Source: Pseudarthrobacter defluvii (GTDB lineage: Bacteria > Actinomycetota > Actinomycetes > Actinomycetales > Micrococcaceae). Taken from it: DNA of 64,000 bases. The stretch covers positions 4,092,001-4,156,000 of the forward strand of contig NZ_JAUSYG010000001.1 of assembly GCF_030816725.1 (NCBI RefSeq), in the 5' to 3' direction. The notes beneath the pieces were generated by a model that was given only the letters and a program-made list of their open reading frames with translations, was not told where the DNA came from and did no database searches. Positions 4,446 through 60,956 of the stretch are shown piece by piece. The first letter of the stretch is position 1. Every line of letters begins with the position of its first letter. The position numbers and the translations under genes are program-made.

Positions 4446-4459
4446 CTAAGCAAGCTTAG
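4446..4459. promoter_or_regulatory. Palindrome CTAAGCAAGCTTAG in the xfp-katE intergenic region
   Basis: A perfect inverted repeat (TAAGC-AA-GCTTA core) lies 50 bases before the katE start. It directly follows GGGTAC at 4441, which resembles a sigma-B type -10 element but lacks a well-spaced -35. Similar palindromes precede three other stress-type loci in this window (17070, 54969, 60943). Likely a regulator binding site; the regulator is unknown. Confidence 0.5.
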
Positions 4460-4508
4460 CTTTCGCTGCGGCGGAAGCTGGGAACGTCAATTGTGGGGAG
4501 ATCGAGAC

Positions 4509-6740
4509 ATGCCAGCCGAAGACGACATTGTAATTCCCGGGGTTCCGTCCAGCGAGCCGCCGGCGCTCGAGGAGTCCACCACTCCGCGGGAGCCGTTGCC
4601 GCCAAAGCCCGACCAGCGCGGCCCCGAGGCCGTGTCCCCCACCGGCAGCCCTACCGGCGCGCCGGCCACAGCGCGCGCCCAGTCGGGCCAGTACCTGACC
4701 ACGGCCCAGGGCCTCCGGCTGCAGGATACGGACCATTCCCTGAAGGCCGGCGCGCGGGGCCCCATCCTGCTGCAGGACCACCACCTGCGCGAAAAGATCA
4801 CCCACTTTGACCACGAGCGGATCCCGGAGCGCGTTGTCCATGCGCGCGGAGCGGGCGCCCACGGCGTGTTCCGGTCCTACGGGACGGCTTCGAAGGTCAC
4901 GCGCGCCGGTTTCCTTGCCGCGGACGTCGAAACGCCCGTGTTTGTTCGGTTCTCCACCGTGCTCGGCTCCCGGGGGTCCGCGGACGCGGTGCGTGACACC
5001 CGCGGTTTCTCCACGAAGTTCTACACGGATGAGGGCACCTACGACCTGGTGGGGAACAACATTCCGGTGTTCTTCATCCAGGACGGCATCAAGTTCCCGG
5101 ACGTGGTCCACGCCGCCAAGCCCCATCCGGACCGGGAGATCCCGCAGGCCCAGAGCGCGCATGACACGTTTTGGGACTTCGTGTCGCTCCACACAGAGGC
5201 GCAGGCGCACACCATGTGGAACATGTCCGACCGCGGCATCCCCCGCTCCTACCGGACCATGGAGGGCTTCGGCGTCCATACCTTCCGCCTTGTCAACGCT
5301 GCAGGCGACACCACCCTGGTGAAGTTCCACTGGAAGCCGAAGCAGGGCGTGCACTCCCTGGTGTGGGAGGAAGCCCAGATCATCAACGGCATGGACCCGG
5401 ACTTCCACCGGCGCGATCTGGCGGACGCCATCGAGGCCGGCGCCTACCCGGAATGGGAACTGGGCATCCAGACCTTCCCGGACACGGAAGACCAGATGTT
5501 CGAAGGCATCGACCTGCTGGACCCCACCAAGTTCATCCCGGAGGAACTGGCCCCGGTGCAGCCCATCGGGCTCATGACGCTCAACGCGAACCCCACCAAC
5601 TTCTTCGCTGAGACCGAGCAGGTGGCGTTCCACCCGGGCCACCTGGTGCCGGGCATCGACGTCACCAATGATCCCCTGCTGCAGGTGCGGCTGTTCTCCT
5701 ACCTGGACACCCAGATCTCGCGCCTGGGCGGGCCCAACTTCGCGCAGATTCCCATCAACCGGCCGCACGCCCCGGTCAACGATATGCTCCGGGACGGCAT
5801 GCACCAGACGGCGGACCATGCAGGAGTTGCGCCCTACCGGCCCAATTCGCTGGACGGCGGCTGCCCGTTCCTGGCCGGGCAGGACGTGGGGGCGTTCGTG
5901 GACGTGCCGGAGGCGGTTGCGGAATCCATCAAGGAACGGCGCAACCCGGCCTCCTTCGATGACCACTTCAGCCAGGCCCGGTTGTTCTTCCGCAGCCTGA
6001 GCGCCGTGGAGCAGGACCATGTGATCCAGGCGTACACGTTCGAGCTCGGCAAGTGCTACGAAAGCGCGGTCCGCGAACGCCAGCTCCAGGCCCTGGCCAA
6101 CATCGACGCCGCACTGTGCGCCGCCGTCGCAGCCGGCCTGGGCATGCCCGCGCCGGAGGCCACCGAGCAGGTCGCGGACCGCGACCCCAGCCCGGCAGTG
6201 TCCCAGGTGGGCGAAACCTGGCCGGTTGCCGGCCGCGTGGTGGGCATCATTGCCGATTCCTCCAGCGACCTGGCCGAGGTGGAGGCCGCCCGCAAAGCGC
6301 TCGACGGCGAGGGCATGGTCCCGCTGGTCATCGCACCAACCGGGGGCGTGCTTTCCTCCGACGGGCTTTCGGTGACGGTCCAACGGACCTTCCTCACTGC
6401 ACGGTCCACCGAGTTCGACGCGCTGATCGTGGCCGGAGGCAAGCAGCCCGGGCCCGACGCCTCCGCCGGGCGCGACGCCAAGGCCGGGGAGCCGGTTAAC
6501 GCCCCCGATCCGCGGGTCGCCCTCATGCTCTCCGAGGCGTACCGCCACGCCAAGGCCATTGGCGTGTGGGGCTCCGGTTCAGCAGTTCTTGAGGCGATCG
6601 GCATCCAGCAGGAAACGGTTGGCGTTGCTGCCGGCAGCGATGCAGCCTCGGTGACCGCCGAGGTTTCCAGGCTGCTCGCCGCGCACCGCGCCTGGGACCG
6701 GTTCCCGGCCACCGGGGCGGCCGTCTCCGTGGAGCAGTAG
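4509..6740 (+). CDS. katE: Large-subunit (clade 2, HPII-type) catalase
   Basis: Heme catalase that dismutates hydrogen peroxide. Its 743 residues match the large-subunit class. After a Pro-rich N-terminal arm, the core begins with ARGPILLQD. The catalytic His is in [12 protein letters not shown], the distal Asn in [12 protein letters not shown], and the heme-ligand Tyr in RLFSYLDTQ. The C-terminal 150 residues form the class I amidotransferase/DJ-1-like domain of HPII enzymes ([24 protein letters not shown]). ATG 4509 follows GGGGAG at suitable spacing. The gene is monocistronic: a strong hairpin follows it, and it diverges from xfp. Oxidative or stationary-phase control is likely. Confidence 0.95.
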
Positions 6741-6776
6741 GCCGCGCTCACCGCTTCATCCGCCGCTTTTATCGCT

Positions 6777-6808
6777 GGGGGCCCGCGTCACACTTGATGC
6801 GGGCCCCC
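6777..6808 (+). terminator. Hairpin terminator after katE
   Basis: Perfect 10-base arms GGGGGCCCGC and GCGGGCCCCC with a 12-base loop lie 36 bases after the katE stop. There is only a weak T tract. This is the usual form of an actinobacterial intrinsic terminator. Confidence 0.75.
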
Positions 6809-6893
6809 CGCGTTTCCCGCTGTGAAGCGCCGGGTGACGGTTGGCAAAACCACCCGTTTCGCAATTCCTACTTCCGGGTAATGTGGACCCAGA

Positions 6894-7493
6894 ATGTACA
6901 CCCTCACCATCAACCAGACGGACAGCCGGCGCGACGGCGACCAGGTGCCGCAGCTGCTCAAGGCGCTGCGGCACATTCCCGCGCGCCTGGACTTCGACCG
7001 GTCGGTGGAGGACGAGGTCCAGGGGATTGTCGAGTGCCCGCATCAGACGGTGGACGCCGCCCTCATCGCTCTTCGCAGCGGGCACTGGTACGTGGGCATT
7101 GGCGCCGGACCGGTGGACGAGCCGCTCCCCAACCAAATCAAGGACGCATCCGGACACGGGCTGGTCTATGCGCGCCGTGCCGTGGACCGGCTCCGCAGGA
7201 GCAAGGAGCGGGTGCCGGTTGCGGTGGAGGGGCCGCTGGTTGATGTTGCCCATGACGCCGAAGCCATCCTGCGGCTGCTGGGCCACATCGTGCGGGACCG
7301 CTCAGGCGCGGAATGGCGCGTGCTGGACCTGTTGACCCCTGGAGTCCGAGGCCAGCAGAAGGCCGTGGCGCAGGAACTGGGCATCACTACCCAGGCCGTC
7401 AGCAAAGCGGTGGCACGGGCGCAGTGGAATGAAGAACATGCTGCCCGGCCAGCAGCTGCCCGGCTGCTGGCGCTGATCCTCGCGGTGGACTGA
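6894..7493 (+). CDS. Unknown protein with C-terminal helix-turn-helix
   Basis: I do not recognise a named family with certainty; the layout resembles SatD-like proteins found in actinobacteria. The 199-residue protein has an N-terminal alpha/beta region with no catalytic motif that I can identify. Near residues 153-175, GQQKAVAQELGITTQAVSKAV is a clear helix-turn-helix of the MarR/sigma-like type, so DNA binding is probable. No Shine-Dalgarno sequence precedes ATG 6894. A TAATGT hexamer lies 9 bases upstream, so the message may have a very short leader. It stands alone between the katE terminator and the oppositely oriented phosphatase. Its targets are unknown. Confidence 0.75.
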   Translation: MYTLTINQTDSRRDGDQVPQLLKALRHIPARLDFDRSVEDEVQGIVECPHQTVDAALIALRSGHWYVGIGAGPVDEPLPNQIKDASGHGLVYARRAVDRLRRSKERVPVAVEGPLVDVAHDAEAILRLLGHIVRDRSGAEWRVLDLLTPGVRGQQKAVAQELGITTQAVSKAVARAQWNEEHAARPAAARLLALILAVD

Positions 7494-7542
7494 CCGCCGC
7501 AGCCGCGTCCCGCCGTCGTCCGTTACCTTCGCGGCCCTGGGC

Positions 7543-8127
7543 CTAGCTCCCGGTGGCCGCCATGACCAGCTCGCCGTTGAAGTACTCCAGCTTCCAGCCG
7601 TCCACCGCGTGGTGGTGCGCCAGGTTGAGTGCCGCGTTGTCCACGCTTGCCAGGGTCTGTCCGATGGCGCGGCTGAGGCTGACCCGCAGCAGGGTCCCGT
7701 GGGTGACCACCAGGAGCCGCTGCCCCCGGAACTCCTCCGCCAGGGCTTCCAGCGCCGCGAGGCCACGGCCGGCGGCCTCTTCTTCGCTCTCCGCACCCTT
7801 GAACCCGCCGGGCACGCGAAGCGCGTCCAGTTCGGGGCCTGCCTGCATCCCCTCGGCCGGGCCGAAACTGCGCTCGGTGAGTTCCGGGACGCGGCGGGAC
7901 ACTTTGAGCCCGAGCCCTTCGGCGATGAGGTCTGCCGTTTCAGCGGCGCGGCTCAGCGGCGAGGAGACGATGGCGTCCCATTCGTAAGGGGCAAGGACGG
8001 CGACGGCGTCCCGCGCCTGGCCGCGTCCGACGTCGTTCAGGGGGATGTCCGTCGCACCCTGCAGCCGGCGCTCGGCGTTCCAGTCGGTCTGGCCATGGCG
8101 GACGAGGGCGAACGTCGTAAGGGTCAT
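7543..8127 (-). CDS. Histidine phosphatase family protein (phosphoglycerate mutase-like)
   Basis: Broad-specificity phosphatase of the histidine phosphatase (PGAM) superfamily, 194 residues. The phospho-acceptor motif RHGQTDWN lies near residue 10 and an Arg at the expected SSPLSRAAETA. The acid residue is in the TERSFG region, and the second His is in VVTHGTLLR near residue 145. This length and motif set fit small phosphatases of the CobC/GpmB type rather than the glycolytic dPGM. A HAD phosphatase ends up in the same direction just upstream (66-base gap), so the two may be co-transcribed. Substrate cannot be told from the sequence. Confidence 0.9.
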   Translation of the reverse strand: MTLTTFALVRHGQTDWNAERRLQGATDIPLNDVGRGQARDAVAVLAPYEWDAIVSSPLSRAAETADLIAEGLGLKVSRRVPELTERSFGPAEGMQAGPELDALRVPGGFKGAESEEEAAGRGLAALEALAEEFRGQRLLVVTHGTLLRVSLSRAIGQTLASVDNAALNLAHHHAVDGWKLEYFNGELVMAATGS

Positions 8128-8193
8128 GCCCCTATTCTGCCTTGACTGCGGGCCCGTACTGGAATCGCGGCAGCGGGCTACGCCGTGGGTGCC

Positions 8194-9081
8194 TTAGAGG
8201 AGGCTGCGCAGCACGTGGGCGGCGCCGTCGTCGTGCACTGAGTGGGTGACCTCGTTGGCTGCGGCGACCACTTCTGCGGGGGCCTGCCCCATGGCCACGC
8301 CGCGCCCAGCCCAGGTGAGCATCTCGATGTCGTTCCGGCCATCGCCCACCGCAACCGTGAGGTGCTGCTCGACACCAAGCCGGACCCGGAGGTTTTCCAG
8401 AGCGCTGGCCTTGGTCACCCCTGCTGCGGCGATGTCCAGCCACGCGGTCCAGCCCACGGAGTAGGTCACTCCCGCGAGGCCCACGTGGTTGATGGCTTCG
8501 GTGAACTCCTCCGGAGTGTTCTCGGTGCTGAACACCACCACGCGGACTGCGGTGGACTCCAGCATGGTGTGGAAGTCAACGCCCACCGCCTCCACGCCAA
8601 AGCTGGCATCCTGGAACCGCTCGGTGGACAGGAAGTTCCCGTCGGCATCCTCCAGCGCGTACTTGGCGGACGGGAGGCGTTCCCGGAGTGCACGCAGGGC
8701 CGGGGCCGGATCAAACGTGGCCTTGTGGATCACCTCGTAGCCGTTTTCCAGTTCCGGGTGGAGCCGGAGGGTCACCCCGCCGTTGCAGCAGACGGCATAC
8801 CCGCGCTCGATGCCGATTTTTTCGATGATGGGAAGCGTGGCATTCAGGGAACGGCCGGTGGCGATCATCACCTCGTGCCCGGCGGCCACCACGGCCTGCG
8901 CCGCTTCCCGCACTCCGGGGGACATGTGGCCGTCATGGTTCACCAAGGTGCCGTCCACGTCCAGTGCGACCATGAATTTCTGGTCAATTGCGGCGAACTC
9001 GATGTGGTTCAGGGAGTTGTTCTCGTTGTTCTCTCGCCGGTCATCGTTGCCGGCGACTGAGGTTTCAGTCAACGTTGTCAT
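8194..9081 (-). CDS. HAD hydrolase, Cof/IIB subfamily
   Basis: Predicted Mg-dependent sugar- or nucleotide-phosphate phosphatase. HAD motif I is MVALDVDGTL near residue 37. Motif II is IATGRS. The conserved Lys is in the TKASAL region, and motif IV is VGDGRNDIEML. The alpha/beta C2B-type cap sits between motifs II and III. The N-terminus is uncertain: the frame is open to 9168, and ATG codons at 9087 and 9081 both lack a clear Shine-Dalgarno site. I chose 9081 (MTTLTETSV) because the more upstream part is low-complexity. A second Cof-type enzyme is at 62672. Confidence 0.88.
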   Translation of the reverse strand: MTTLTETSVAGNDDRRENNENNSLNHIEFAAIDQKFMVALDVDGTLVNHDGHMSPGVREAAQAVVAAGHEVMIATGRSLNATLPIIEKIGIERGYAVCCNGGVTLRLHPELENGYEVIHKATFDPAPALRALRERLPSAKYALEDADGNFLSTERFQDASFGVEAVGVDFHTMLESTAVRVVVFSTENTPEEFTEAINHVGLAGVTYSVGWTAWLDIAAAGVTKASALENLRVRLGVEQHLTVAVGDGRNDIEMLTWAGRGVAMGQAPAEVVAAANEVTHSVHDDGAAHVLRSLL

Positions 9082-9215
9082 CCACATAGTGAACCAGACG
9101 TCACTGACAGGCGCTAGGACGCGGGCCACAGGTTTATTGAACTGTTGATTAACACGGCGGGTTTCCACAGCCGTCCGAAATCGTCAGTCCGAACCGTGTT
9201 CGCACATCCGCCCCT

Positions 9216-10277
9216 TCAGAGTTCTGATTCGCGAACAAGCCTCTGCCCCTCGGGCAAAGGTACCTCCGAGCCCGGGCGGAGTCCGGCCGCCAGAAGCTTC
9301 CACCTCAGCCGGCTGGGGTCCGTCAGATCGGCCCACCGCCACCTCACGAAGCCGTGCCCGAGCGCGCGAATCCGGTCCTCGCGGAGCTTTTCCCGGTACA
9401 CCGCCTCCTCCGCGGTGTAGCCGCCGCGAAGGCCGTCCTGCACATACTTGCCCTTACCGTCGAACTCCCCGACCACACGCTGCCGAGGCCACCAGAAGTC
9501 GCTCCTGCCGATAAAGCCTGCACGGTCACTGAAGACGTGCTGGAGTACAGGCTGCTCGAACCCCAGAAGCACAAACACGGCCCGGCTGTAGGACTCCCCT
9601 ACCGATTCCGACAGTGGGCTGGCGAGGGCAGCAACCATCTCCGCCCGGCTCCGGGCCGCTGCGGAAGGAAGAGCGGCTATGCCGGCTGCCATTCCTGAGA
9701 CCGAAAACAACGACCCGCCTGGTCCCAGAATGCCGTCCGTTACGAGTCTGCGGGCCGCTCCATCCGCAAGCACCAGCGCCTGGTCCAACTTCGCTGAGCC
9801 AAGTACGTCCACTGTCGTGCGGATGAGCCCGGAACAAAGGAACTCCCCATGCCGGACAGGTTCAAACCGCGGCACGAGCCGGTACCTGAGCGAATAGGAT
9901 CGCGTCTTGCGCACCTCCTGCGCGGTTCCGTCCCCACCCAGGACCAACAGGGGCGACTTACGGACACCGCTGCGGCCGGGGAGGTCTGTGGCCAGCTCAA
10001 CGCAGGGCGGCGTGCCGAGCGTGGGCAACCCGCTGGCAACGGCTGCCGTTTGCCCGCACAGCTCTGCACCCTTGACCGACCGGGCGATCGCCGTCGTAGT
10101 CCACGCAAAGCGCTGCGAGGGGCGCGCCTGCAGCCAGTCCTCGGTGCGCACGTAGAAGCCACGCCGGATCCGGACGAGCTGCCCTGCCTTGAAGGAACGG
10201 TGGATAGCGTCGGTGGTGACTCCCGTACGGAGGACGGCGGCAGTATCGATCAGTCCGGGCGGTATCTCCATTCCCAC
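9216..10277 (-). CDS. AbiEi-like antitoxin-domain protein with C-terminal nuclease-like region, orphan
   Basis: The N-terminal 60-70 residues (GVTTDAIHRSFKAGQLVRIRRGFYV) match the winged-helix AbiEi/type IV antitoxin domain. The C-terminal part (VVGEFDGKGKY, then VYREKLREDRIRALGHGFVRW) resembles the Vsr/DUF559-like PD-(D/E)xK fold, with D and E/K spacing suited to a nuclease remnant. No AbiEii toxin gene is adjacent. Proteins of this layout are common orphans in Arthrobacter and relatives; their function is unproven. The start may be GTG 10277 or ATG 10271. The gene lies downstream of serS on the same strand and is flanked by repeated TGTTCGC motif copies (see repeats). Confidence 0.72.
   Translation of the reverse strand: MGMEIPPGLIDTAAVLRTGVTTDAIHRSFKAGQLVRIRRGFYVRTEDWLQARPSQRFAWTTTAIARSVKGAELCGQTAAVASGLPTLGTPPCVELATDLPGRSGVRKSPLLVLGGDGTAQEVRKTRSYSLRYRLVPRFEPVRHGEFLCSGLIRTTVDVLGSAKLDQALVLADGAARRLVTDGILGPGGSLFSVSGMAAGIAALPSAAARSRAEMVAALASPLSESVGESYSRAVFVLLGFEQPVLQHVFSDRAGFIGRSDFWWPRQRVVGEFDGKGKYVQDGLRGGYTAEEAVYREKLREDRIRALGHGFVRWRWADLTDPSRLRWKLLAAGLRPGSEVPLPEGQRLVRESEL
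9221..9245. repeat. Direct repeat copy overlapping the 3' end of the AbiEi-like gene
   Basis: These 25 bases match 10388-10412 at 22 positions, in the same orientation. They encode the last residues RLVRESE of the gene. The copy 1.17 kb away would encode RLVRGSE in the same strand and frame sense. A facing TGTTCGC at 9197-9203 pairs with GCGAACA at 9231-9237. Confidence 0.65.
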
Positions 10278-10363
10278 AGCCTGCAGCCCGGGCGCCCGCG
10301 AAAGCTCCCGTAAACACGCCTATGTGGATAGCCTCTGGGATGGGCCCAGAAGACTCCTGAACC

Positions 10364-10412
10364 TGTTCGCGGATCAGAACCATGAAGGTTCGGATCCGCG
10401 AACAAGCCTATG
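10364..10412. repeat. Inverted repeat plus direct-repeat copy between serS and the AbiEi-like gene
   Basis: TGTTCGCGGATCAGAACC (10364-10381) and GGTTCGGATCCGCGAACA (10387-10404) pair at 17 of 18 positions around a 5-base loop. The right arm begins the direct repeat that recurs at 9221. It may be the serS terminator, an AbiEi-type autoregulatory operator, or a duplication left by gene insertion. There is no T tract. Confidence 0.65.
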
Positions 10413-10424
10413 AAAGGGGAGCCC

Positions 10425-11705: not shown

Positions 11706-11793
11706 CAGACAAGGGTATCCAATTCACTGCACGACGGCGGGCGGCCGGCTCCGTGCACCCTCCCGCCGCCCGCCGGGCTACTGTTGAAACACC

Positions 11794-16964: not shown

Positions 16965-17069
16965 GCTGCGACGGCGCCTTTCCGCAGCCTGTTCCCCCTG
17001 CAGCCGCACCCCATGAGTTGGCGTCCCGGTCGTTGTGCTTCGGCAAGACTGGCGTCTATGGTTGAACGA

Positions 17070-17081
17070 TAAGCATGCTTA
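17070..17081. promoter_or_regulatory. Palindrome TAAGCATGCTTA upstream of the LapA-like gene
   Basis: A perfect 12-base palindrome lies 24 bases before the ATG at 17105. It shares both core and downstream flank (ATTCTGG) with the site at 60944. It is close enough to the start to overlap the transcription start region. Confidence 0.55.
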
Positions 17082-17104
17082 GCATTCTGGGAAAGGGAAC
17101 GATC

Positions 17105-17560
17105 ATGAGTACAGGACGGTACACACCGGGACCGGACCACCGGCCGGAAACGGAAACCAACACGGCGCCGTTGGATGCGGCACAGGCCTCGAATGATCGC
17201 GCAGCCAGCTACGGCAACGCGCCGTCCTACTCGTCGGGAGGGCCGGAAACACCCGCCACGGGAGCTGCCCCGACCCCCTCGGCCGGCGTCACCCCGGAGC
17301 GCAAAGTCACCCGGGCCGGAGTTATCTGGGCAGCAGTGGTGGCCGCCTTGGTGCTCCTGATCCTGCTGATCATCTTTATCCTGCAGAACCAGGAGCTGGT
17401 CCTGGTGAAGTTCCTGGGCTTCGAGGGCTCCGTCCCGCTGGGCATGGCACTGTTCATCGCCGCAGTGACCGGCGGCGTCCTGGTGGCCGCGGCAGGCGGC
17501 GCGCGCATCCTGCAGCTCCGCAGGAACACCCACCGGTCCAGGGTGCAGCAGCGGAGGTAG
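17105..17560 (+). CDS. LapA/DUF1049-like membrane protein
   Basis: A 151-residue protein: a polar, Pro/Thr/Ser-rich N-terminal 70 residues, then two transmembrane helices (about 75-97 and 112-135) and a basic C-terminus RRNTHRSRVQQRR. The block FILQNQELVLVKFLGFEGSVPLGMAL between the helices is the hallmark of the LapA (lipopolysaccharide assembly protein A) domain. In Gram-positive bacteria such proteins are of unknown function. ATG 17105 follows AAAGGGA. The upstream palindrome suggests stress-type regulation. Monocistronic, followed by the DHFR-like gene 59 bases downstream. Confidence 0.88.
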   Translation: MSTGRYTPGPDHRPETETNTAPLDAAQASNDRAASYGNAPSYSSGGPETPATGAAPTPSAGVTPERKVTRAGVIWAAVVAALVLLILLIIFILQNQELVLVKFLGFEGSVPLGMALFIAAVTGGVLVAAAGGARILQLRRNTHRSRVQQRR

Positions 17561-49218: not shown

Positions 49219-50118
49219 CTAAAGCCCCTTGCCGCCGGTGACGGGCAGGACTGCCCCGGAAATGTAGGACCCGTCCTCGGATGCGAGCAGCACGTAGGCC
49301 GCCGCGAGCTCGGCGGGCTGACCCGCGCGCTCCAACGGAGTGTCCTGCCCGAAGGACGGGAGCTTGTCCGGCCACTCGGTGGCGGGGATCAGGGGCGTCC
49401 AGATGGGGCCGGGCGCCACTGCGTTGACGCGGATCCCCTTGGGTCCGAGCTCCTGGGCCAGTGCCTTGGTGAATGCCACCTGCGCGGCCTTGGTCATGGC
49501 GTAGTCGATGAGCCCGGGCGAGGGATTGAAGGCCTGGATGGAGGCCGTGGTGATGATCGAGGCTCCCGCCTTGAGGTGCGGCACCGCGGCCCGTGCCGAC
49601 CAAAGCAGCGAGTACAGGTTGGTCCGGAAGACCCGGTCAAACTCCTCTGTGGGAAGCGTGTCCAGGCTCTCGCGGTTCTTCTGGTACGCCGCATTCAGCA
49701 CCAGGACATCGAGACGGCCGAATTCGGACACCGTCTCCTCCACGATGCGGGTGCTGAACTCCTCTTCGCGCCCCTCGCCGGGCAACAGGAGAGCGCGCCG
49801 TCCTGCTTTCCGGATCCACTCCGCGGTGTCCTGGGCGTCGTCTTCCTCCTCGGGAAGGTACGAGATGGCGACGTCGGCCCCTTCGCGGGCAAAGGCGATG
49901 GCCGCTGCCTTGCCGATGCCGGAGTCCCCGCCGGTGATGAGCGCCGCTTTTCCTTCGAGCTTGCCGTTCCCCTTGTAGCTGTGCTCCCCGTGGTCCGGTT
50001 TCGGGTCCATGGGCGCCGTGAGTCCGGGCTGTTTCTGTTCCTGCTCAGGGAACGGGCCCGAGTGGTAGCCCCCGCGCGGATCTTTCGGCTGGTCCGTTTG
50101 CTTGTCCGTGTCGCTCAT
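49219..50118 (-). CDS. SDR oxidoreductase, general stress protein 39-like
   Basis: A 299-residue short-chain dehydrogenase with a hydrophilic 45-residue N-terminal extension, as in the YdaD/GSP39 subgroup. The NAD(P) motif is ALITGGDSGIGKAAAIAFAREGAD. Later motifs are LNAAY (NAAY variant of NNAG), the catalytic YAMTK, and VNAVAPGPIWTPL. ATG 50118 was chosen because the upstream frame is unsupported. A sigma-B-like promoter sits upstream (50240-50215). It shares an operon with the acidic small protein and is divergent from the DUF6328/DUF6766 membrane genes. Substrate unknown. Confidence 0.93.
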   Translation of the reverse strand: MSDTDKQTDQPKDPRGGYHSGPFPEQEQKQPGLTAPMDPKPDHGEHSYKGNGKLEGKAALITGGDSGIGKAAAIAFAREGADVAISYLPEEEDDAQDTAEWIRKAGRRALLLPGEGREEEFSTRIVEETVSEFGRLDVLVLNAAYQKNRESLDTLPTEEFDRVFRTNLYSLLWSARAAVPHLKAGASIITTASIQAFNPSPGLIDYAMTKAAQVAFTKALAQELGPKGIRVNAVAPGPIWTPLIPATEWPDKLPSFGQDTPLERAGQPAELAAAYVLLASEDGSYISGAVLPVTGGKGL

Positions 50119-50214: not shown

Positions 50215-50240
50215 CCACCCGCAGGTAATAATCAGTAAAC
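50215..50240 (-). promoter_or_regulatory. Sigma-B-type promoter candidate for the SDR operon
   Basis: On the minus strand GTTT (50240-50237), a 16-base spacer and GGGTGG (50220-50215). This is one or two mismatches from GNNT-N14-16-GGGTAC. The GTTT lies in an AT-rich patch (AGTAAACTTAT). Confidence 0.35.
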
Positions 50241-50338
50241 TTATCAAATGTTGTAACGAGCGCAACGGGCCGGCCTTGTTTCTGGGTATGGGAGGAGTAG
50301 AAAGAAGGCGACGGCCTGGCGAGAGGAAGGAGGGGCCG

Positions 50339-50863
50339 ATGTCCGAAGTTGAGGACTACACGGGCCGGACGGGACGGAACGAAACCCGCGAGGAGCAGCT
50401 GGACCGCAACTGGGCGGAACTCCTGCAGGAGCTGCGTGTGCTGCAGACCGGGGTGCAGATCCTGGCCGGCTTCCTGCTGACGCTTCCGTTCCAGCAGCGG
50501 TTTGAAATGCTGGATGACTGGGAGGTTGGCCTCTACCTGGTCAACGTGGTGATCGCCGCACTGACCACGGCCTTCATCCTCCTCCCCGTCAGCGTGCACC
50601 GGCGCCTTTTCCGCAAACGGCTCAAGGAAATGCTGGTGTCCAGCGCCGACACCATCACCAAGATTGCCCTGGCCGGCATTGCCCTGCTCAGCGCAGGAAC
50701 CGCGGCCCTGGTGTTCGACGTGGCAGCCGGAAGGTCCGCAGGGGTCGCCGCCGGCGGCGCGCTGCTGGGCGTCATGGTGGTCATGCTGGTATTCGTCCCG
50801 CTCCGGCTGAACAAGCTGGCCTCGGGGCGGCTCCTTCCCACGGAGAAGGCCAAGGAGGAATAA
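50339..50863 (+). CDS. DUF6328-type membrane protein
   Basis: A 174-residue protein: a charged N-terminus (EDYTGRTGRNETREEQLDRNWAELLQELRVLQTG), then four hydrophobic segments (about 38-58, 66-88, 105-130 and 138-160). The motif LRVLQTGVQILAGFLLTLPF is characteristic of DUF6328. Function unknown. ATG 50339 follows AAGGAGG at 5-base spacing, a strong ribosome site; earlier in-frame starts have none. Its stop abuts the next start codon (TAA then ATG), so it is tightly coupled to the DUF6766 gene. Confidence 0.85.
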   Translation: MSEVEDYTGRTGRNETREEQLDRNWAELLQELRVLQTGVQILAGFLLTLPFQQRFEMLDDWEVGLYLVNVVIAALTTAFILLPVSVHRRLFRKRLKEMLVSSADTITKIALAGIALLSAGTAALVFDVAAGRSAGVAAGGALLGVMVVMLVFVPLRLNKLASGRLLPTEKAKEE

Positions 50864-51526: not shown

Positions 51527-51561
51527 CACGCCAACCAGCCCCACCCAAAAGGAGAGACTGT

Positions 51562-53024: not shown

Positions 53025-53050
53025 GCGCTCCATCATGCCAGCACCAACAT

Positions 53051-53064: not shown

Positions 53065-53125
53065 AAGCCCGGTATGCGGACCTGGCAGCAACCTCCGGGA
53101 CAGGAGCAGCGGCCCTCTAGGATTC

Positions 53126-53935: not shown

Positions 53936-53955
53936 GGCGGGCCTTTCATTAGGGG

Positions 53956-54402: not shown

Positions 54403-54492
54403 GGTATGTCCTGTAAGTCTTGCGCCGGCGGTTGGCTGGGTGGCGCCGGAGGATGATCCGGTGCCTGCCAAACGCTGGGGCGCGGGTGCGGC

Positions 54493-54942
54493 TTAGGCGT
54501 CTTCCCGGTTGGGGTTTTCCAGCCGGAAAAAATTGGATTGGGCGCCGTCGCTGCGCTGTTCCTGGTAGATGAAATTCAGTTTCCGGGAGTCGAAGGTGCG
54601 GAACCATTCCTCCCAGCTGACGTGGCGGAGCTTGTCGTCCTTGCCGCCGAAGTCAATCCGCAGCACGCCGAGATGGTCGCCGTGCTCCGTGCCTTCCACC
54701 GTGGCAGGCACGCCGTCGCGCTCCTCAGCCCACTCCTTGATGACTTCGTGGTGGGTGGTGGCCAGGCTGCGGCCTTCGCGTTCCGGCTCGTCCTCGGTGG
54801 AGGTGACTTCCTGTGAGTACTTCAGGGATTTTGCGGAGTCCGGTCCGTGGCGGATCTTCCCGCCCTCGGGGCCGGCCCCGAGGTCTTGTTTGTCGCCGTC
54901 TCCCTCCGCCTCGCGGTCCTTCCTGCCTTTGTCTTCTGCCAC
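54493..54942 (-). CDS. Conserved hydrophilic stress-type protein
   Basis: A 149-residue protein. The first 60 residues are charged and disordered (Lys/Glu/Asp/Gly). The second half is conserved in a family I know from actinobacteria only as hypothetical. It includes HHEVIKEWAEERDGVPATVEGTEHG, LGVLRIDFGG, HVSWEEWFRTFD and FIYQEQRSDGAQSNFFRLE. No catalytic motif. ATG 54942 is preceded by GGAGGGAGGAAG. A palindrome of the TAAGC-N2-GCTTA type lies 27 bases upstream. Likely first gene of the operon running through 53126. Confidence 0.78.
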   Translation of the reverse strand: MAEDKGRKDREAEGDGDKQDLGAGPEGGKIRHGPDSAKSLKYSQEVTSTEDEPEREGRSLATTHHEVIKEWAEERDGVPATVEGTEHGDHLGVLRIDFGGKDDKLRHVSWEEWFRTFDSRKLNFIYQEQRSDGAQSNFFRLENPNREDA

Positions 54943-54968
54943 CGCGTCTTCCTCCCTCCGGCTAACTA

Positions 54969-54982
54969 GTAAGTCTACTTAC
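54969..54982. promoter_or_regulatory. Palindrome GTAAGTCTACTTAC upstream of the stress-type operon
   Basis: A near-palindrome (12 of 14) of the same architecture as those at 4446, 17070 and 60943, with TAAGT-CT-ACTTA. It sits 27 bases before the start codon at 54942. Confidence 0.45.
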
Positions 54983-55128
54983 CATGGAGCCTCTGAATCC
55001 TGCCCCCTGTCAAGGGGAGGGAAGGCAGTCTGCGGATCGCCTGCGGGCAGGTGGCTGTAGTCTGCGGGGCGACCGAAAGCTTCCGCCAAGGGTTGAGGTT
55101 GCCGGTTGCAGGTGCCGGTTGCGGCAGG

Positions 55129-55950
55129 TTATCGGAGGGGCCGGACCACCGCGTAGTAGCCGGGCACCCGGTCCTGTCCCGGGACACCGGTGGCCGGGTT
55201 GGTTTCGATGGCTACGTGCCCGTCCTCCAGGAGTTCCCAGGCCGACGCCGGAAACGCCCGTTCACGCTCTTCGGGCCCAAAGTGCCCCGGCATCGGAAGT
55301 CCGCGGATGGCAAGCTCCAGCGGCGCCGGAATGCCGCGGGTGGTGGCTCCGAGGTGGGACACGTACTCCACCGGGTTTCCCTGGAAATTGGTTTCGGCCA
55401 TGAAAACAGTGCCGCGGCGGCCTGCAAGGTGCCGCAGGTTCTCGACGAGTGCTGTTTGGTGGTCCGGGTCGAGGACATGCAGCACGCCGCGGATGAAAAC
55501 GTTGGCACCGTCCACGCCGGCGCCGATGGAGTCGGCCAGGGCTGATCCGGCACCGTCCGCCGTCATGTCCCGTGCTTCAAAAGATGTATTGCTGTTTCCT
55601 GCCGACTCGGCCCGCGCCCGGGCAACAGCGTGCCGCGAGACATCCACGCCAATGACGTTGGGAAAGACCGCGGCGAGTGCCCGGGTGAAACTGCCGTGGC
55701 CGCAGCCGGTGTCCACCACGGGAAGTGCGGGGTCAAGGTGGCGCAGGAGGCTGTCCGTGTAGCCATGGAACTCGTGGTCGCTGCCCGAGTCCCACAGGAC
55801 CTCGCCGCCCGGTCCGGTGGCCCTGATGCCGGCCCAGTAGGTGTCCCATGCCTTGTGCCGGTCCTTCGGGGCGTTCCGCGAGAGCCTGACGAGTTTGGGG
55901 ATCATCAGGTACTTCTGCCAGGCGGAGGATGATGATTTTGTTGGGGGCAC
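55129..55950 (-). CDS. SAM-dependent class I methyltransferase
   Basis: A 273-residue methyltransferase. Motif I is LPVVDTGCGHGSFTRAL (about residue 80), with the acidic loop GVDVSRHAVARARA; the post-I motif is NTSFEARDMT. The last part (MAETNFQGNPVEYVSHLGATTRGIP) may form the substrate lid. It has a basic N-terminus but no membrane segment. The target (small molecule or lipid) is unknown. ATG 55950 has no clear ribosome site. It is divergent from the histidine kinase gene by 181 bases and separated from the stress operon by a 146-base gap in which I see nothing. Confidence 0.88.
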   Translation of the reverse strand: MPPTKSSSSAWQKYLMIPKLVRLSRNAPKDRHKAWDTYWAGIRATGPGGEVLWDSGSDHEFHGYTDSLLRHLDPALPVVDTGCGHGSFTRALAAVFPNVIGVDVSRHAVARARAESAGNSNTSFEARDMTADGAGSALADSIGAGVDGANVFIRGVLHVLDPDHQTALVENLRHLAGRRGTVFMAETNFQGNPVEYVSHLGATTRGIPAPLELAIRGLPMPGHFGPEERERAFPASAWELLEDGHVAIETNPATGVPGQDRVPGYYAVVRPLR

Positions 55951-56131
55951 GGCTCAAATATATGTTCCCTCCCTGGCAGCCACGGCACCTTGGCCCACAT
56001 TTCGGCGCGCCACGCCCGGCGCTGTCCGAACAGAGGACGGGAAGGGGGAGGTGGAACGAGGTCCCCCGGTGGTAGACCTGCGCCGCCGCCATCCCCCTAG
56101 AATGTACTCAACTGGGAGGGAAGGGAGCACT

Positions 56132-57787
56132 GTGACGGCCGTGCCGAGTGACGTCCCCCTGCCCCGCACCGCCGTCGTGGCTGATCCAGACGCCGGCCGG
56201 CTGGCCACCAACGCCCAGGCACTGCGCGATGCCGGGTACAGCGTCTTCGAAGCAACCAACGCCGAGGGCCTTGCTGCCGTGCTCCGCGCCACCGAACCGT
56301 CCGTCGTCGTCGCCGACGCCGTCCTGTCCACAGCACTGCCGAATGTCCCGTCCGCGGCCCCCGTCCTGGTGATGGTCGACCTGGACGACCCGCAGGAGAT
56401 CGCCGCGGCCAACCCGCCAGGCATCCACGACTGCATCACCAAGCCCCCGGCCCCGCGGGAGCTGGTCCACCGCGCCTCAGTCCTCATTGAGCAGGTGTCC
56501 CGGCGCCGTGCCTCCCGCGAGGATGCAGAGGGGCTCCGCGGGCAGTTGCGCGAAGTTTCTGCCGCAGTACGCGCCACCAACGACCCTCAGGAAATCGCCA
56601 CCCACGTTGTCAACGGGTTCGGCCGGACCTTCAGGGCGGACCACGTGGTCCTGGCTACCTTCGAGGACCACCGCGTCCCTGTGATCACTGCCGCTTGGCG
56701 CCGGCCAGGCCTGGCAGAGCTGCCCCACGATGCCCTTCCCGGCGAGGATGAGGCCCGGGCCGCGGCGGACGCGCTCTGGGCCGGGACGGAGACGCTCTCC
56801 GCCGAGGGAAACGATGCCGGGCCCGGGCCCGACGAAAAGCCTGTGGCCGCCGTCGCCGGCGCCGCCTCCACCTTGGCGGTCCCCATCGGTGAAGGAAACT
56901 CCTCCCTGGGCATCATCTGGATCGCCATGATGGACCGGCCCCGCACCTGGTCCAGTGCTGAACTGGGGCTGATCCAGCACGTGGCCGGCAACGCCGCCTA
57001 CGGCCTGATCCAGAGCCACCTGATCAGCAGCCAGCAGCAGGTGGTGAAGCAACTGCGGGAACTCGACAAAGCCAAAACGGACTTCCTGGCCACGGTGAAC
57101 CACGAGCTGCGTACGCCCCTGACCTCGATCATGGCGTACCTGGACATGATCCAGGAAAGCACCGAGCACCCGGTGTCCAGGGAAGTCCACCAGATGCTGG
57201 ACATCGTGGTCCGCAATACCGAGCGGCTGCGGACCCTCATCGAGGATATGCTCAGCGTCTCGCGAGGCGGGCTGGACAGCATGGAGATGCACTTGGCGCC
57301 GGTGCGCCTGGGGCAGACCCTGGACCTGGTGGCCGCGGCGCTTCGGCCGCTGGCCACGCTGCAGAACGTCACCATCGATGTGGACCCGGTGCCGGAGGAC
57401 CCCGAAATCCTTGCCGATGAGGTGCAGCTGCAGCAGGTGTTCACCAACCTCGTGTCCAACGCCATCAAGTTCACGCCCAAAGGCGGACGGATCGAGGTGG
57501 GCAGCGAAGCCCACGCCGCGGAGGACGGCTCCAAATGGGCCACCGTGCGCATCGCCGACACTGGCATCGGCATTTCGAGCGATGAAATCAACCACGTGTT
57601 CACCCGCTTCTACCGGGCCTCCAACGCCATGAACGGCGCCATTCCGGGGACAGGGCTTGGCCTTGCGATCTCCAAGGACATCGTGGACCGCCACGGCGGG
57701 CGGATCGACGTCCACTCCACCCTGGGTGCAGGCACCACGGTTACCGTCAGCCTGCCGCTCGGAACTGACCGCGTGCAGGCCAACTAG
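56132..57787 (+). CDS. Hybrid sensor histidine kinase (REC-like, GAF, HisKA, HATPase)
   Basis: A soluble 551-residue kinase. The N-terminal receiver-like domain (about 12-115) keeps VVADPD, VVVADAVL with the putative Asp and the TKP lysine. A GAF domain follows (about 140-305). HisKA has FLATVNHELRTPLTSI with the phospho-His (about 330). The catalytic domain carries NLVSNAIKFTP, DTGIGIS and GTGLGLAISKDIVDRHGG, all boxes intact. GTG 56132 follows AAGGGAG; the frame upstream overlaps the divergent methyltransferase and is not used. It is followed after 19 bases by a GGDEF-EAL gene. No separate response regulator gene is present. Confidence 0.93.
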   Translation: MTAVPSDVPLPRTAVVADPDAGRLATNAQALRDAGYSVFEATNAEGLAAVLRATEPSVVVADAVLSTALPNVPSAAPVLVMVDLDDPQEIAAANPPGIHDCITKPPAPRELVHRASVLIEQVSRRRASREDAEGLRGQLREVSAAVRATNDPQEIATHVVNGFGRTFRADHVVLATFEDHRVPVITAAWRRPGLAELPHDALPGEDEARAAADALWAGTETLSAEGNDAGPGPDEKPVAAVAGAASTLAVPIGEGNSSLGIIWIAMMDRPRTWSSAELGLIQHVAGNAAYGLIQSHLISSQQQVVKQLRELDKAKTDFLATVNHELRTPLTSIMAYLDMIQESTEHPVSREVHQMLDIVVRNTERLRTLIEDMLSVSRGGLDSMEMHLAPVRLGQTLDLVAAALRPLATLQNVTIDVDPVPEDPEILADEVQLQQVFTNLVSNAIKFTPKGGRIEVGSEAHAAEDGSKWATVRIADTGIGISSDEINHVFTRFYRASNAMNGAIPGTGLGLAISKDIVDRHGGRIDVHSTLGAGTTVTVSLPLGTDRVQAN

Positions 57788-57806
57788 GCGCCGAAGGAGG
57801 ACTGCC

Positions 57807-59357
57807 ATGTTTGCCGACGACGACCCCCGGCTTTCCCAGCTGCTGGAAGGCATTGTCCGGCTTGCCTCCGGCGACCTCACCTCACGCATCGAGGTGTCAC
57901 CGGCCCGCGATGAGCTGGACGCGATCATCATGGGCACCAATCTGCTGGCAGAGGACCTGCAGGTCATTTATGAAGAACTCGAGCAGCGGGTCCAGGTCCG
58001 GACCCAACTCCTGCACGAGGCACACCTCGAAATGCAGAAGATGGCCATGCAGGACCCGTTGACAGGCCTGGCCAACCGCTCGGCGCTGATCGAGGCCCTT
58101 CGCGCCGCCCTGGCAGCACGTGCCGGGGCGGACCGTGAACCGGCGGGGGAAGGTCCGGCCATCCTGCTCATGGACCTGGACGCGTTCAAGTCCATCAACG
58201 ACAGCATGGGGCACACGGCCGGAGACCAGGTGCTGGTGACTGTAGGTGAAAGGCTGCGGAACGCCGTCAGGCTGACCGACGTGGTTGCCCGCCTGGGCGG
58301 GGACGAGTTCGCGATCGTCATGCCCTCGGCGTCGGCGGACCAGGCTGCCCTCGTGGCCCACCGGATCCTGGCGTCGCTCAATGAGCCCATCGAGCTTCCC
58401 GGCCGCAGTGTCCGCTGCGGTGCCAGCATCGGGCTCAGTGTGGGCAGCGAAGGCCAGAGCCCGGAGGACATGCTGATGGAGGCCGACGTCGCCATGTACG
58501 CCTCCAAGGCTGAGGGGCAGAACAGGCTGCACCGGTTCGAGCCGGCGCTGCTGCTGATGCGGCGGCTCCGGAGCCAGCTCGTGGACGACCTGAGGGCTGC
58601 CATCAAGAGTGACGCCCTGACTCTGCACTACCAGCCGGTGGTGGAGCTTGCCACCGGACGGATCGAAGGGGTGGAGGCGCTGGTCCGGTGGAACCACCCC
58701 ACGCGCGGTTTCATCATGCCTGATGAGTTCATCCCCCTGGCCGAGGAAGCAGGGCTGATCTCCGAACTGGGCCTCTGGGTGCTCCGGACCGCGGTGAAGC
58801 AGCTTCGGGCCTGGACCGACGCGTCCCTGGTGGACAGCAGTTTTTCGGTGCGAATCAACATCTCCGCCACCGACCTGCAGAGCCTGCAGTTCATTGAGGA
58901 CGTGCGCAACACGCTCCAGGAGACGGGGGTCAGGCCGGAGCAGGTGGTCCTGGAACTGACGGAAGTGGCCATCGTCAAAGGCAACGAGTTGGACCGGTAT
59001 TCGCTGGGCGGGCTCCGCGGGCTGGGCGTGGGGATCGAGATTGACGACTTCGGTACCGGCTACTCCTCCATCAGCTACCTCCGCCGGCTGCCGGTGGACC
59101 GGGTCAAGGTGGACCGGTCGCTGATCACCGGGCTTGAGAGCGACCCAAGCCAGCCGGCCCTGGTGGCGGCGGTCCTGCAACTGGTCCGGGCCTGCGGGCT
59201 GGAAGCGGTGTGGGAAGGCGTTGAGACGGCGGAGCAGGCGGAGATCCTGCGGGACCTGGGCTGCCGCAGCGCCCAGGGCTACTACTTCAGCCGGCCCGTT
59301 CCACCGGAGCAGATTCCGGAACTGCTCGCTGACCAGCAGGAAAGCGCTAACCCGTAG
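57807..59357 (+). CDS. GGDEF-EAL cyclic di-GMP protein
   Basis: A 516-residue protein. A short HAMP-like helical segment (about 5-75) precedes GGDEF (about 85-245, with intact ARLGGDEFAIV) and EAL (about 260-505). In the EAL domain EALVRW, NISATDL, ELTE, DDFGTGYSS, KVDRSL, EGVETAEQ and QGYYFSRP are all present, so both synthesis and hydrolysis of c-di-GMP are possible. It lacks a membrane anchor. ATG 57807 follows GAAGGAGG, an excellent ribosome site, 19 bases after the histidine kinase stop. The neighbours suggest control by that kinase. Confidence 0.95.
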   Translation: MFADDDPRLSQLLEGIVRLASGDLTSRIEVSPARDELDAIIMGTNLLAEDLQVIYEELEQRVQVRTQLLHEAHLEMQKMAMQDPLTGLANRSALIEALRAALAARAGADREPAGEGPAILLMDLDAFKSINDSMGHTAGDQVLVTVGERLRNAVRLTDVVARLGGDEFAIVMPSASADQAALVAHRILASLNEPIELPGRSVRCGASIGLSVGSEGQSPEDMLMEADVAMYASKAEGQNRLHRFEPALLLMRRLRSQLVDDLRAAIKSDALTLHYQPVVELATGRIEGVEALVRWNHPTRGFIMPDEFIPLAEEAGLISELGLWVLRTAVKQLRAWTDASLVDSSFSVRINISATDLQSLQFIEDVRNTLQETGVRPEQVVLELTEVAIVKGNELDRYSLGGLRGLGVGIEIDDFGTGYSSISYLRRLPVDRVKVDRSLITGLESDPSQPALVAAVLQLVRACGLEAVWEGVETAEQAEILRDLGCRSAQGYYFSRPVPPEQIPELLADQQESANP

Positions 59358-59529
59358 CGAAAAAAACTACTGCGCTTTTGGAGCCGCCGTTATACGATCA
59401 GCGTGCGGTGTCCGGTTTTTCGCCGCCGCGGAATTCAGGTCTTTCGGCACCGTACTTTTATAAGGCGTTTGGAAATTTGAACATTATTGGGCCATCGGGT
59501 CATTACTTCGTCAACTGGGGGCGTTGCTA

Positions 59530-60591
59530 ATGTCGGTTCGGGTACAGGCATGGGGAATCATCGCTGCCGTCCTGGCGGATACGGATCCTGCGGGAGCCGC
59601 CGTCCGGCAGCGGCTGAGCAACAGCCTCGACGAGAATCCCGGCGTGCCGGAGCGGGCGTTGCTGGAGTATCTGCTGGAAACCCGGCGGAGCGATGCCAAT
59701 ACGGTGGAAACGCTGGAAACGGCCAGGGAGATGCGCCTCACGCCGCCCGCGCTGCCGCCGCAGTTCGCAGAGCAGCTGGACGCCATCCGGAGCATGTCCC
59801 GGATCAGCGCCTTGCTCGAAAACCGGATGCTCATGACCGCGTTCCAGCCCATCTACGGGCTGGGGGGAAAAACCGTGGTGGGTGCAGAAGCGCTGTCCCG
59901 CTTCGTCAGCGACGACGGGGCGGCGGCCGAGCTGTGGTTCGCTGAGGCCGCGGCCGTGGGGCTTGGAGCAAACCTTGAGTTTTCCGCGCTCGGGTCCGCC
60001 GCAGCGGCCGCCCGCGCCCTGCCAGAGAACCTTTATGTTTCCCTGAACATTTCGCCCACATCCTGCCTTGACCCGCGGCTGCCGGAACTGTTCGAGCACA
60101 TTGAGCTTCCCATCGACAGGGTGGTGCTGGAATTGACTGCGGATGTTCCGGAAGAGGAATACCTGCAGTTTATTTCCGCAATCAATCCGCTCCGGGAAGA
60201 GGGGCTGCGGATCGCGGTCGATGACACCCATTCCGGCGCCGGGGCCCTCAGCCGCATGATCCACCTGCGGCCCGATTTCCTCAAGGTGGGCCGCAACGTC
60301 ATCGCGGACGTGGACAAGGACGGACTGCAGCACGCCCTTGCGGCCTGCCTGGTGGACTTCACTGACAAGATCGGCGTTACCTTGGTGGCCGAAGGCATTG
60401 AAACAGTGGGAGAACTGAAGGCGCTGACCGAACTGGGCATCAGCGCCGGCCAGGGTTACCTGCTGGGCCGGCCTTCCGTCCGGCCCCAGGACTGGGCCAG
60501 CTGGAACACGCGCCTGGACCTGGACGGCCTCGAGCGCCAGCTGGCCGGCCGGGGCGAGCTGCGGAGCCGGCAGGGCAAAACAGCTTCCTGA
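59530..60591 (+). CDS. EAL-domain protein, probably degenerate
   Basis: A 353-residue protein with an N-terminal helical region of about 90 residues and an EAL domain after it. GAEALSRF and NISPTSC are kept. LELTAD replaces the expected ELTE, DDTHSGAGA replaces DDFGTGYSS, and KVGR replaces KVD. EGIET and QGYLLGRP remain. Loss of the loop and metal-associated residues suggests weak or no hydrolysis, more likely a binding or sensing role. ATG 59530 has only a weak ribosome site; TTG 59524 is possible. A 172-base AT-richer gap with TATAAG at 59459 separates it from the GGDEF-EAL gene, so it may have its own promoter. Confidence 0.85.
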   Translation: MSVRVQAWGIIAAVLADTDPAGAAVRQRLSNSLDENPGVPERALLEYLLETRRSDANTVETLETAREMRLTPPALPPQFAEQLDAIRSMSRISALLENRMLMTAFQPIYGLGGKTVVGAEALSRFVSDDGAAAELWFAEAAAVGLGANLEFSALGSAAAAARALPENLYVSLNISPTSCLDPRLPELFEHIELPIDRVVLELTADVPEEEYLQFISAINPLREEGLRIAVDDTHSGAGALSRMIHLRPDFLKVGRNVIADVDKDGLQHALAACLVDFTDKIGVTLVAEGIETVGELKALTELGISAGQGYLLGRPSVRPQDWASWNTRLDLDGLERQLAGRGELRSRQGKTAS

Positions 60592-60611
60592 AACTTGCCG
60601 TGGGGCAGCGG

Positions 60612-60634
60612 GCGGCGGGCTGCATACCCGCCGC
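60612..60634. terminator. Hairpin between the EAL gene and the convergent small gene
   Basis: Arms GCGGCGGG and CCCGCCGC with a 7-base loop lie 20 bases past the EAL stop and 17 bases past the minus-strand gene's stop. Suitable for both strands. Confidence 0.6.
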
Positions 60635-60651
60635 ACCGCAAACTCCCGACG

Positions 60652-60888
60652 CTATTCGGAGTGGCCCTGGTCCCTGCTCATCTGGTCTTCGGCCGGCGGC
60701 GTCTCCCCCGGAGGCACTCCTCCGCCCGGTTCCAGTCCGGTCACGTTGCCCTCGGCAGGATCCGGGTTGGGCGACCCGCCCGATTCCGCACTGCGCTGCT
60801 CCGCCAGGTGCGGCTGTGCCGCACCAACGTCGTCCTTCCCGGGACGGTCGGGGTTGGCAGGGTCATTTTCCGGATGGTAAGTGCTCAT
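60652..60888 (-). CDS. Small hydrophilic protein
   Basis: A 78-residue Pro/Gly/Asp/Glu/Ser-rich protein beginning MSTYHPENDPANPDRPGKDD. It has no hydrophobic segment and is predicted disordered. No family recognised. ATG 60888 is preceded by AGGAAGG. It is divergent from the small gene at 61024, and a TAAGC palindrome (60943) lies between them, which suggests shared regulation. Confidence 0.65.
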   Translation of the reverse strand: MSTYHPENDPANPDRPGKDDVGAAQPHLAEQRSAESGGSPNPDPAEGNVTGLEPGGGVPPGETPPAEDQMSRDQGHSE

Positions 60889-60942
60889 GCTGCCTTTCCT
60901 TCCTCTCCGGCTGCGGTTCGGTTCCCCAGCACTGGACTAATT

Positions 60943-60956
60943 GTAAGCATGCTGAT
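60943..60956. promoter_or_regulatory. Palindrome GTAAGCATGCTGAT between divergent small stress-type genes
   Basis: Core TAAGC-AT-GCTGA is one base from a perfect palindrome. Together with its flank (AATTCTGG) it matches the site at 17070 (TAAGCATGCTTAGCATTCTGG). Confidence 0.55.

Follow-up and report, generated by a model that had tools for sequence, protein, structure and literature searches.

The window analysed here is a stretch of 64,000 nt from Pseudarthrobacter defluvii (contig NZ_JAUSYG010000001.1, positions 4,092,001 to 4,156,000 of the forward strand). It carries five copies of a palindrome of the type TAAGC-N2-GCTTA, hereafter called the dyad, all in intergenic DNA (Table 1). The original prediction had described four of them, before katE, a LapA-like gene, an operon for hydrophilic proteins and two divergent small genes, and had proposed a common regulator of a general stress-type regulon. 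All four were found where it placed them and are intergenic. The fifth, dyad 5, had been overlooked. The palindrome is a real, conserved site, found at the promoters of several dozen genes, most of them stress-related. The dyads are probably the operators of a MarR subfamily, represented in this genome by MarR-A and MarR-B, that would repress these promoters.

A scan of the window with the bare 12-bp core, allowing two mismatches, gave 9 matches against 5.98 ± 2.31 expected, and 15 of 100 shuffles reached 9. As this raw count was not significant, a 22-bp profile was used instead, trained on 41 genome sites with three window sites left out. Ten of the 44 training sites scored below 18 bits and are probably chance occurrences; they were kept, which weakens the profile. 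In the window the profile picked out the five intergenic dyads at 17.9 to 29.9 bits, and the next best match scored 9.8 bits. An order-2 Markov null based on the intergenic DNA of the window gave 0.015 sites of at least 16 bits per window, with a maximum of 18.8 bits in 200 runs. The two weakest sites, dyads 3 and 5, therefore lean also on conservation or on the degenerate pattern described below, which picks up dyad 3 as well. The dyad centres lie 29.5–74.5 bp from the start codons of the genes named in the original prediction and 101.5–128.5 bp from those of further neighbours. Dyad 1 is upstream of katE as predicted; it also faces the divergent xfp gene and, lying between the two, may serve both. 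The flank ATTCTGG, proposed as a shared feature, survived in part: its A/T-rich first part is in the profile, and CTGG is not general among the listed sites.

The whole genome (G000; one contig, C1, of 4,580,739 bases) was searched for TAAGCNNGCTTA with at most one mismatch. There were 50 sites, 9 of them exact, against 35 for the reversed control pattern. The spacer is A/T in each of the 9 exact sites, and TAAGCWWGCTTA occurred 9 times against 0 for its reversed pattern. Outside predicted genes lay 42 of the 50 sites, or 44 if a position within 30 bp of a gene end counts as outside. Genes were called with a simple gene finder written for the analysis, by which 91% of the window is coding. The flanks are informative on both sides and give an extended operator of about W-W-T-R-N-TAAGCATGCTTA-N-Y-A-W-W. 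A degenerate pattern gave 19 genome sites against 0 for its reversed control. At eight further loci outside the window, seven of its sites are intergenic by the gene calls; the eighth reaches just into the first codons of a gene that was probably called with its start too far upstream. A list of 43 sites of at least 17 bits was then drawn up from the loci of the one-mismatch search, the DNA around them and the window. Just two of the 43 fall inside predicted genes (20-bp margin), one in a weakly scoring open reading frame and one near the end of the upstream gene, so that the dyad is not as frequent within genes as upstream of them. Since two of the five window sites have two or more core mismatches, the genome total may by extrapolation be nearer 70. 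No gene was called within 300 bp of four dyads, those at L003, L022, L032 and L001 (30.8, 26.6, 23.5 and 16.2 bits), which possibly mark small proteins or RNAs that lack annotation. L001, with an exact core and a GC-rich flank, falls under the 17-bit cut and hence outside the list of 43.

Conservation was examined for three window genes in genus samples of 61 genomes, with the 30 best loci taken per search and the own genome included. A site of at least 16 bits was present upstream of all 22 katE orthologues (87–100% identity; all those listed at that level) and of none of eight paralogous catalases. The LapA-like gene, matched in 52 of the 61 genomes, had such a site in 28 of its 30 best loci. 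The DUF6328 gene, matched in all 61, likewise had it in 28 of 30, many of the sites being identical, and the remaining two loci carry versions of 15.6 and 15.2 bits. In control windows from the same loci, 1 of 720 reached 16 bits. The predicted conservation before orthologues thus holds for katE, the LapA-like gene and the DUF6328 gene. Among the 22 katE cores, 13 retain TAAGC..GCTTA, 7 are altered in one arm and 2 are altered alike in both (TAAGT..ACTTA); compensating changes occur, and they are not the rule.

The proteins encoded within about 290 bp of the sites, 55 in all, were run on Pfam, and 20 of them had no match there. The matched neighbours include catalase, phosphoketolase, a ferritin-like protein (Dps-type by reading), a universal stress protein, DJ-1/PfpI, ChaB, three short-chain dehydrogenases (SDRs), an epimerase, an aldo/keto reductase, a zinc alcohol dehydrogenase, two Transgly_assoc (GlsB-type) proteins and PRC-barrel/DUF2382. 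Also found were DUF202, DUF4383, Hva1_TUDOR, Rho_N, polyketide-cyclase-like, PAP2 and haem-oxygenase-like proteins, a Holin-X/DUF3618 operon, LapA, DUF6328 and DUF6480. To judge by these families, the candidate targets look largely like a general stress list. Carbon metabolism is represented by acetate kinase, by GlgE and glycogen phosphorylase (these two with one dyad in common) and by a CBM48/alpha-amylase enzyme (at loci L016, L036 and L023), beside the phosphoketolase of the window (xfp-katE region, 1886-6740). With dyads near several such genes, control by the regulon may extend to a shift in carbon flow. At L039:586-1335 a sigma-70 gene (regions 2 and 3) begins 171 bp from a dyad, and the regulon may include this sigma factor of its own. 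Two similar operons (L009:1713-2612 and L040:1579-2427) encode MTENQW proteins, which belong to no Pfam family, and a Holin-X-type gene follows in both cases. Upstream, both have more than a single dyad-like element, with several of at least 16 bits at L009 and one of at least 17 bits at L040. Within the window, the SDR beside dyad 5 is one that we take to resemble YdaD. The hydrophilic 149-aa and 123-aa proteins beside dyads 3 and 4 had no match in Pfam or NCBIfam.

Table 1. Dyads, neighbouring genes and putative promoter elements of the window, and the two MarR genes of the genome.
Feature	Position	Strand	Sequence or family match	Remarks
Dyad 1	4442..4463; core 4447-4458		22-bp GGTACTAAGCAAGCTTAGCTTT; core TAAGCAAGCTTA	between xfp and katE; 24.8 bits, leave-window-out
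Dyad 2	17065..17086; core 17070-17081		22-bp AACGATAAGCATGCTTAGCATT; core TAAGCATGCTTA	29.9 bits, leave-window-out
Dyad 3	54965..54986; core 54970-54981		22-bp ACTAGTAAGTCTACTTACCATG; core TAAGTCTACTTA, 2 mismatches	18.9 bits, outside training set
Dyad 4	60939..60960; core 60944-60955		22-bp AATTGTAAGCATGCTGATAATT; core TAAGCATGCTGA, 1 mismatch	27.5 bits, leave-window-out
Dyad 5	50227..50248		AATAATCAGTAAACTTATCAAA	17.9 bits, outside training set
xfp, phosphoketolase	1886..4324	-	Pfam XFP_N/XFP/XFP_C	transcribed away from katE; dyad 1 may serve it too
katE, long (HPII-type) catalase	4509..6740	+	Pfam Catalase 4.6e-167, Catalase_C	
LapA-domain protein	17105..17560	+	Pfam LapA_dom 2.8e-8	candidate target of dyad 2
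Short-chain dehydrogenase	49219..50118	-	Pfam adh_short_C2 2e-57	possible target of dyad 5
DUF6328 protein	50339..50863	+	Pfam DUF6328 3.5e-52	possible target of dyad 5
Hydrophilic 149-aa protein	54493..54942	-		candidate target of dyad 3; dyad centre 33.5 bp from start
DUF6480 small protein	60652..60888	-	Pfam DUF6480 5e-11	candidate target of dyad 4; dyad 61.5 bp from start
Hydrophilic 123-aa protein	61024..61395	+		candidate target of dyad 4; dyad 74.5 bp from start
Putative -10 of katE	4439..4444	+	TAGGGT	overlaps edge of dyad 1; TAG-GT kept in katE footprint
Putative -35 of LapA-like gene	17033..17038	+	TTGTGC	kept in footprint; 18-bp spacer
Putative -10 of LapA-like gene	17057..17062	+	TATGGT	conserved footprint
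MarR-A	G000:C1:4267822-4268352		Pfam MarR 5e-12; PF01047 46.0 bits (cut-off 24.6)	
MarR-B	G000:C1:1565280-1565744		Pfam MarR 7.8e-12; PF01047 45.3 bits (cut-off 24.6)	

The spacer between the MarR-A gene and a divergent stress-type operon holds one exact site and three more dyads. The locus includes stress-type genes, Holin-X and DUF3618 in this genome and PRC-barrel in relatives. Dyads are present at each of the 12 named MarR-A loci, 6 in the marR promoter and 6 before a PRC-barrel-type gene just ahead of marR (Pfam check on L110), and in 11 of the 12 two dyads are exactly 24 bp apart. A palindrome of some 16–20 bp before their own gene is a mark of MarR-family regulators. A peroxiredoxin gene (AhpC-TSA 2.3e-38 in this genome) accompanies MarR-B at 67 of its 68 named loci. 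For the sites found throughout the genus, MarR-B is a better candidate than MarR-A, because these sites occur in genus genomes where MarR-A was not found.

In a family sample of 149 genomes searched with MarR-A at E ≤ 1e-10, a threshold that catches paralogues too, 60 were MarR-positive; MarR-A itself (at least 54% identity) was found in 5. At least one TAAGCWWGCTTA site was present in 34 of the 60 MarR-positive and 4 of the 89 MarR-negative genomes (p 4e-13, a genome-level value inflated by relatedness). At least two sites were present in 29 of 60 and 0 of 89, respectively. Counted by genus, 9 of 14 MarR-positive and 2 of 18 MarR-negative genera had TAAGCWWGCTTA (p 0.003). One genome of the sample, G113, has the sole MarR match among seven sampled genomes of its genus (L097). 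Its weaker dyads score 20.0 and 16.0 bits, and by translation its neighbours read like Transgly_assoc and DUF3618 proteins, which suggests that the locus was transferred together with its sites.

Linkage of the dyad to marR extends beyond the family, and it is there that the case for MarR is strongest. The order sample included 183 non-family genomes, 32 of which had a MarR match at E ≤ 1e-12; exact TAAGCWWGCTTA occurred once each in 5 of the 183. We examined 17 of the 32 homologues, which are of MarR-B type, with a profile trained on the P. defluvii genome alone. A dyad of at least 18 bits lay within 160 bp before the start in 13 of the 17. Each of the 13 was the best match of its own 2.2–3.5 kb locus; they come from seven families and often read TCAGCATGCTGA. 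Exact TCAGCATGCTKA was found within 400 bp of the marR homologue at no fewer than 16 of the 32 non-family loci. The gene divergent from marR (L200-L216) encodes a transporter in 6 of 6 cases tested, 5 MMPL and 1 MFS, and at 4 of 4 loci tested marR is followed by a lipoyl transferase gene. No stress gene was seen among the neighbours scanned at the non-family loci. As the dyad is kept across families beside marR, and this where the scan showed no stress genes, the common factor is MarR. Ancestrally, MarR may have controlled efflux or lipid export locally. The recognition regions resemble one another, VRVQxQTxGxxLxRLE in Arthrobacter and commonly xxQTMSRxxxRLE elsewhere.

The dyads also overlap promoter-like sequences. 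A sigma-A-like promoter was found within 40 bp of the dyad centre in 22 of 48 oriented site-gene pairs, against 6.6 ± 2.5 after shuffling, by a loose criterion that counts each tandem site on its own. The putative -10 elements cluster at -17 to -3 and at +7 relative to the dyad centre. The LapA-like gene has the conserved footprint of a putative promoter, TTGTGC-N18-TATGGT, with dyad 2 directly after the -10 and over the expected start site. This overlap with core promoters is the geometry of a repressor and makes repression likely. Of the close dyad pairs, 34 of 44 are spaced 23–24 bp (orthologous pairs included, so that the pairs are not independent), which suggests cooperative dimers.

From these features we infer the following mechanism. 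A MarR dimer would bind an 18–22 bp palindrome lying over promoter elements or over the expected start of transcription, and in the bound state it would keep several dozen mostly stress-type promoters off. At some promoters, that of MarR-A above all, tandem dyads 23–24 bp apart would allow cooperative binding and negative autoregulation. Strict autoregulation of MarR-B in Arthrobacter was considered and found to be unsupported, a full dyad being present in 4 of 68 loci. Release would be brought about by a ligand, more likely a small molecule than oxidation of a cysteine. Of 43 distinct MarR homologues, 41, with MarR-A and MarR-B among them, contain no cysteine. This speaks against a thiol-redox sensor and points to a ligand. 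Thiol sensing of the OhrR type, which uses a conserved reactive cysteine, was dropped on this ground.

Several observations weigh against MarR repression of a stress regulon. Some genes next to dyads have no evident link to stress (enoyl-CoA hydratase, glycosyltransferase, luciferase-like), and 26 of the 48 oriented pairs have no sigma-A-like promoter of the kind counted above. This genome is not among the 4 of 68 named loci with a dyad of at least 16 bits in the MarR-B promoter of Arthrobacter. No TAAGCWWGCTTA was found in the sample in 5 of the 14 genera with MarR matches; either the operator drifted there or those homologues do something else. Four of the 17 non-family homologues scored below 18 bits in the tested region (14.1, 10.7, -5.3 and -10.6), and at one of these four loci, L212, a site of 21.0 bits lies roughly 25 bp farther upstream. 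Nor, at the cut-off used, is TCAGCATGCTKA exclusive to genomes with a MarR match, as it occurs in 38 of 151 non-family genomes without one against 22 of 32 with one (p 5e-6). In the former, the operator may be common to further MarR proteins, or some occurrences may be due to chance.

That last count, together with the stress-type genes at the MarR-A locus, would fit a different regulator that binds the dyad and also controls the marR genes, MarR being merely one more target and a passenger among stress genes. We consider this unlikely, because outside the family the dyad separates marR from a divergent transporter gene, lipoate genes follow downstream and the neighbours that were scanned include no stress gene, and because the reported SlyA operator is nearly the same word. 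It is equally doubtful that MarR binds the dyads and works chiefly by activation or countersilencing, which is how SlyA acts at some promoters. Some dyads do lie 100–130 bp from a start codon. Several others are 20–40 bp from one, and the footprints of katE and LapA put the dyad at the putative -10 or just downstream of it, where a bound protein should block RNA polymerase. It is very improbable that the palindromes arose by chance as AT-rich words, form RNA hairpins or belong to an alternative-sigma promoter. The raw core scan of the window and the small excess of one-mismatch sites over the reversed pattern in the genome would agree with chance. The profile null and the reversed-pattern controls for TAAGCWWGCTTA and the degenerate pattern speak against it, and conservation upstream of orthologues and linkage to marR lead us to count all three versions as refuted. 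Moreover, a 2-nt loop cannot close an RNA hairpin, and the dyad is symmetric and serves divergent genes, unlike a directional sigma promoter element. The common regulator of a general stress-type regulon that had been predicted is thus supported by intergenic placement, conservation before orthologues and stress-type neighbours, and is most probably the MarR subfamily.

A wider evolutionary reading can be put forward, to which we give about an even chance. In other families of the order the MarR repressor apparently guards only its own gene and a divergent MMPL-type transporter gene. In the Micrococcaceae it would have become a master repressor of the general stress response, through duplication into MarR-A and MarR-B and spread of its operator to several dozen promoters, among them those of katE, a dps-type gene, SDRs, ackA, xfp and glgE/glgP. 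Released by a ligand, it would replace a sigma-B-type switch or act on top of one. If this is true, a local repressor has apparently turned global by the spread of its operator. Arthrobacter and its relatives are hardy soil bacteria. Among the open-licence PMC articles listed by the searches, none described, by title and start of abstract, how they switch on their general stress genes. The analysis provides a defined operator, a pair of candidate repressors and a list of genes for the stress network of an Arthrobacter-type soil bacterium, all directly testable.

Comparison was made with known regulators as described in the available excerpts of the papers cited. The nearest solved relative of MarR-A by sequence is SlyA (4.5e-8). 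The reported consensus operator of SlyA is TTAGCAAGCTAA; in Escherichia coli one site precedes slyA itself by 22 bp, and several operons are regulated (PMC5797941). SlyA/RovA of Enterobacteriaceae shares the MarR fold family, and TTAGCAAGCTAA differs from the core TAAGCAAGCTTA only at positions 2 and 11. The operators here thus have the same form with two symmetric positions changed, whereas the target genes are different. MarR-A and MarR-B scored 41.2 and 34.2 bits with the NCBIfam SlyA equivalog NF002926, whose cut-off is 120 bits. By sequence this is a MarR-family system; it looks as if it works like SlyA, and a SlyA equivalog it is not.

MalR of Corynebacterium glutamicum has more than 60 target promoters and a peak at its own promoter, is linked to stress and lies in an operon with a usp gene (PMC6536590). 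Its motif is the AT-rich palindrome TTnAAnnnTCAA (PMC8070244). Like the proteins studied here it is an actinobacterial MarR with many promoters; unlike them it has cell-envelope targets and a different operator, for which it was set aside as the regulator. No usp gene was recognised from translations beside MarR-A, where some of the neighbours were run on Pfam. PA3458 of Pseudomonas aeruginosa is a MarR-type protein with more than 300 binding sites, stress and osmoadaptation targets and a motif that its authors liken to the SlyA site and that often lies just downstream of the -10 (PMC8070244). It differs in its imperfect motif TTHGNASDSRAARDA and in its other target genes. CrtR, a MarR repressor of Corynebacterium and Micrococcales with members in Arthrobacter, was studied at the carotenoid locus and binds over the -10 and -35 with a 52-bp footprint that, according to the authors, has a TTAA core and no inverted repeat (PMC6739363). 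On this motif CrtR was set aside as well.

Among published articles, the exact 12-mers led to no paper on MarR or an actinobacterial stress regulator in titles and abstract starts, and to one DnaA paper. Among the open-licence PMC papers listed, judged in the same way and with subscription papers outside the search, none was seen to describe a MarR-linked stress regulon of this kind. The sigma-B general stress regulon of Bacillus comprises katE, dps, DJ-1/PfpI, a ydaD-type SDR and small hydrophilic proteins. Its gene content is similar to that of the regulon proposed here, whose shared element is a palindromic operator and not an alternative-sigma promoter. MarR-type regulation itself is already known; a MarR-linked general-stress regulon in the Micrococcaceae, as these sequences suggest it, is most likely new.

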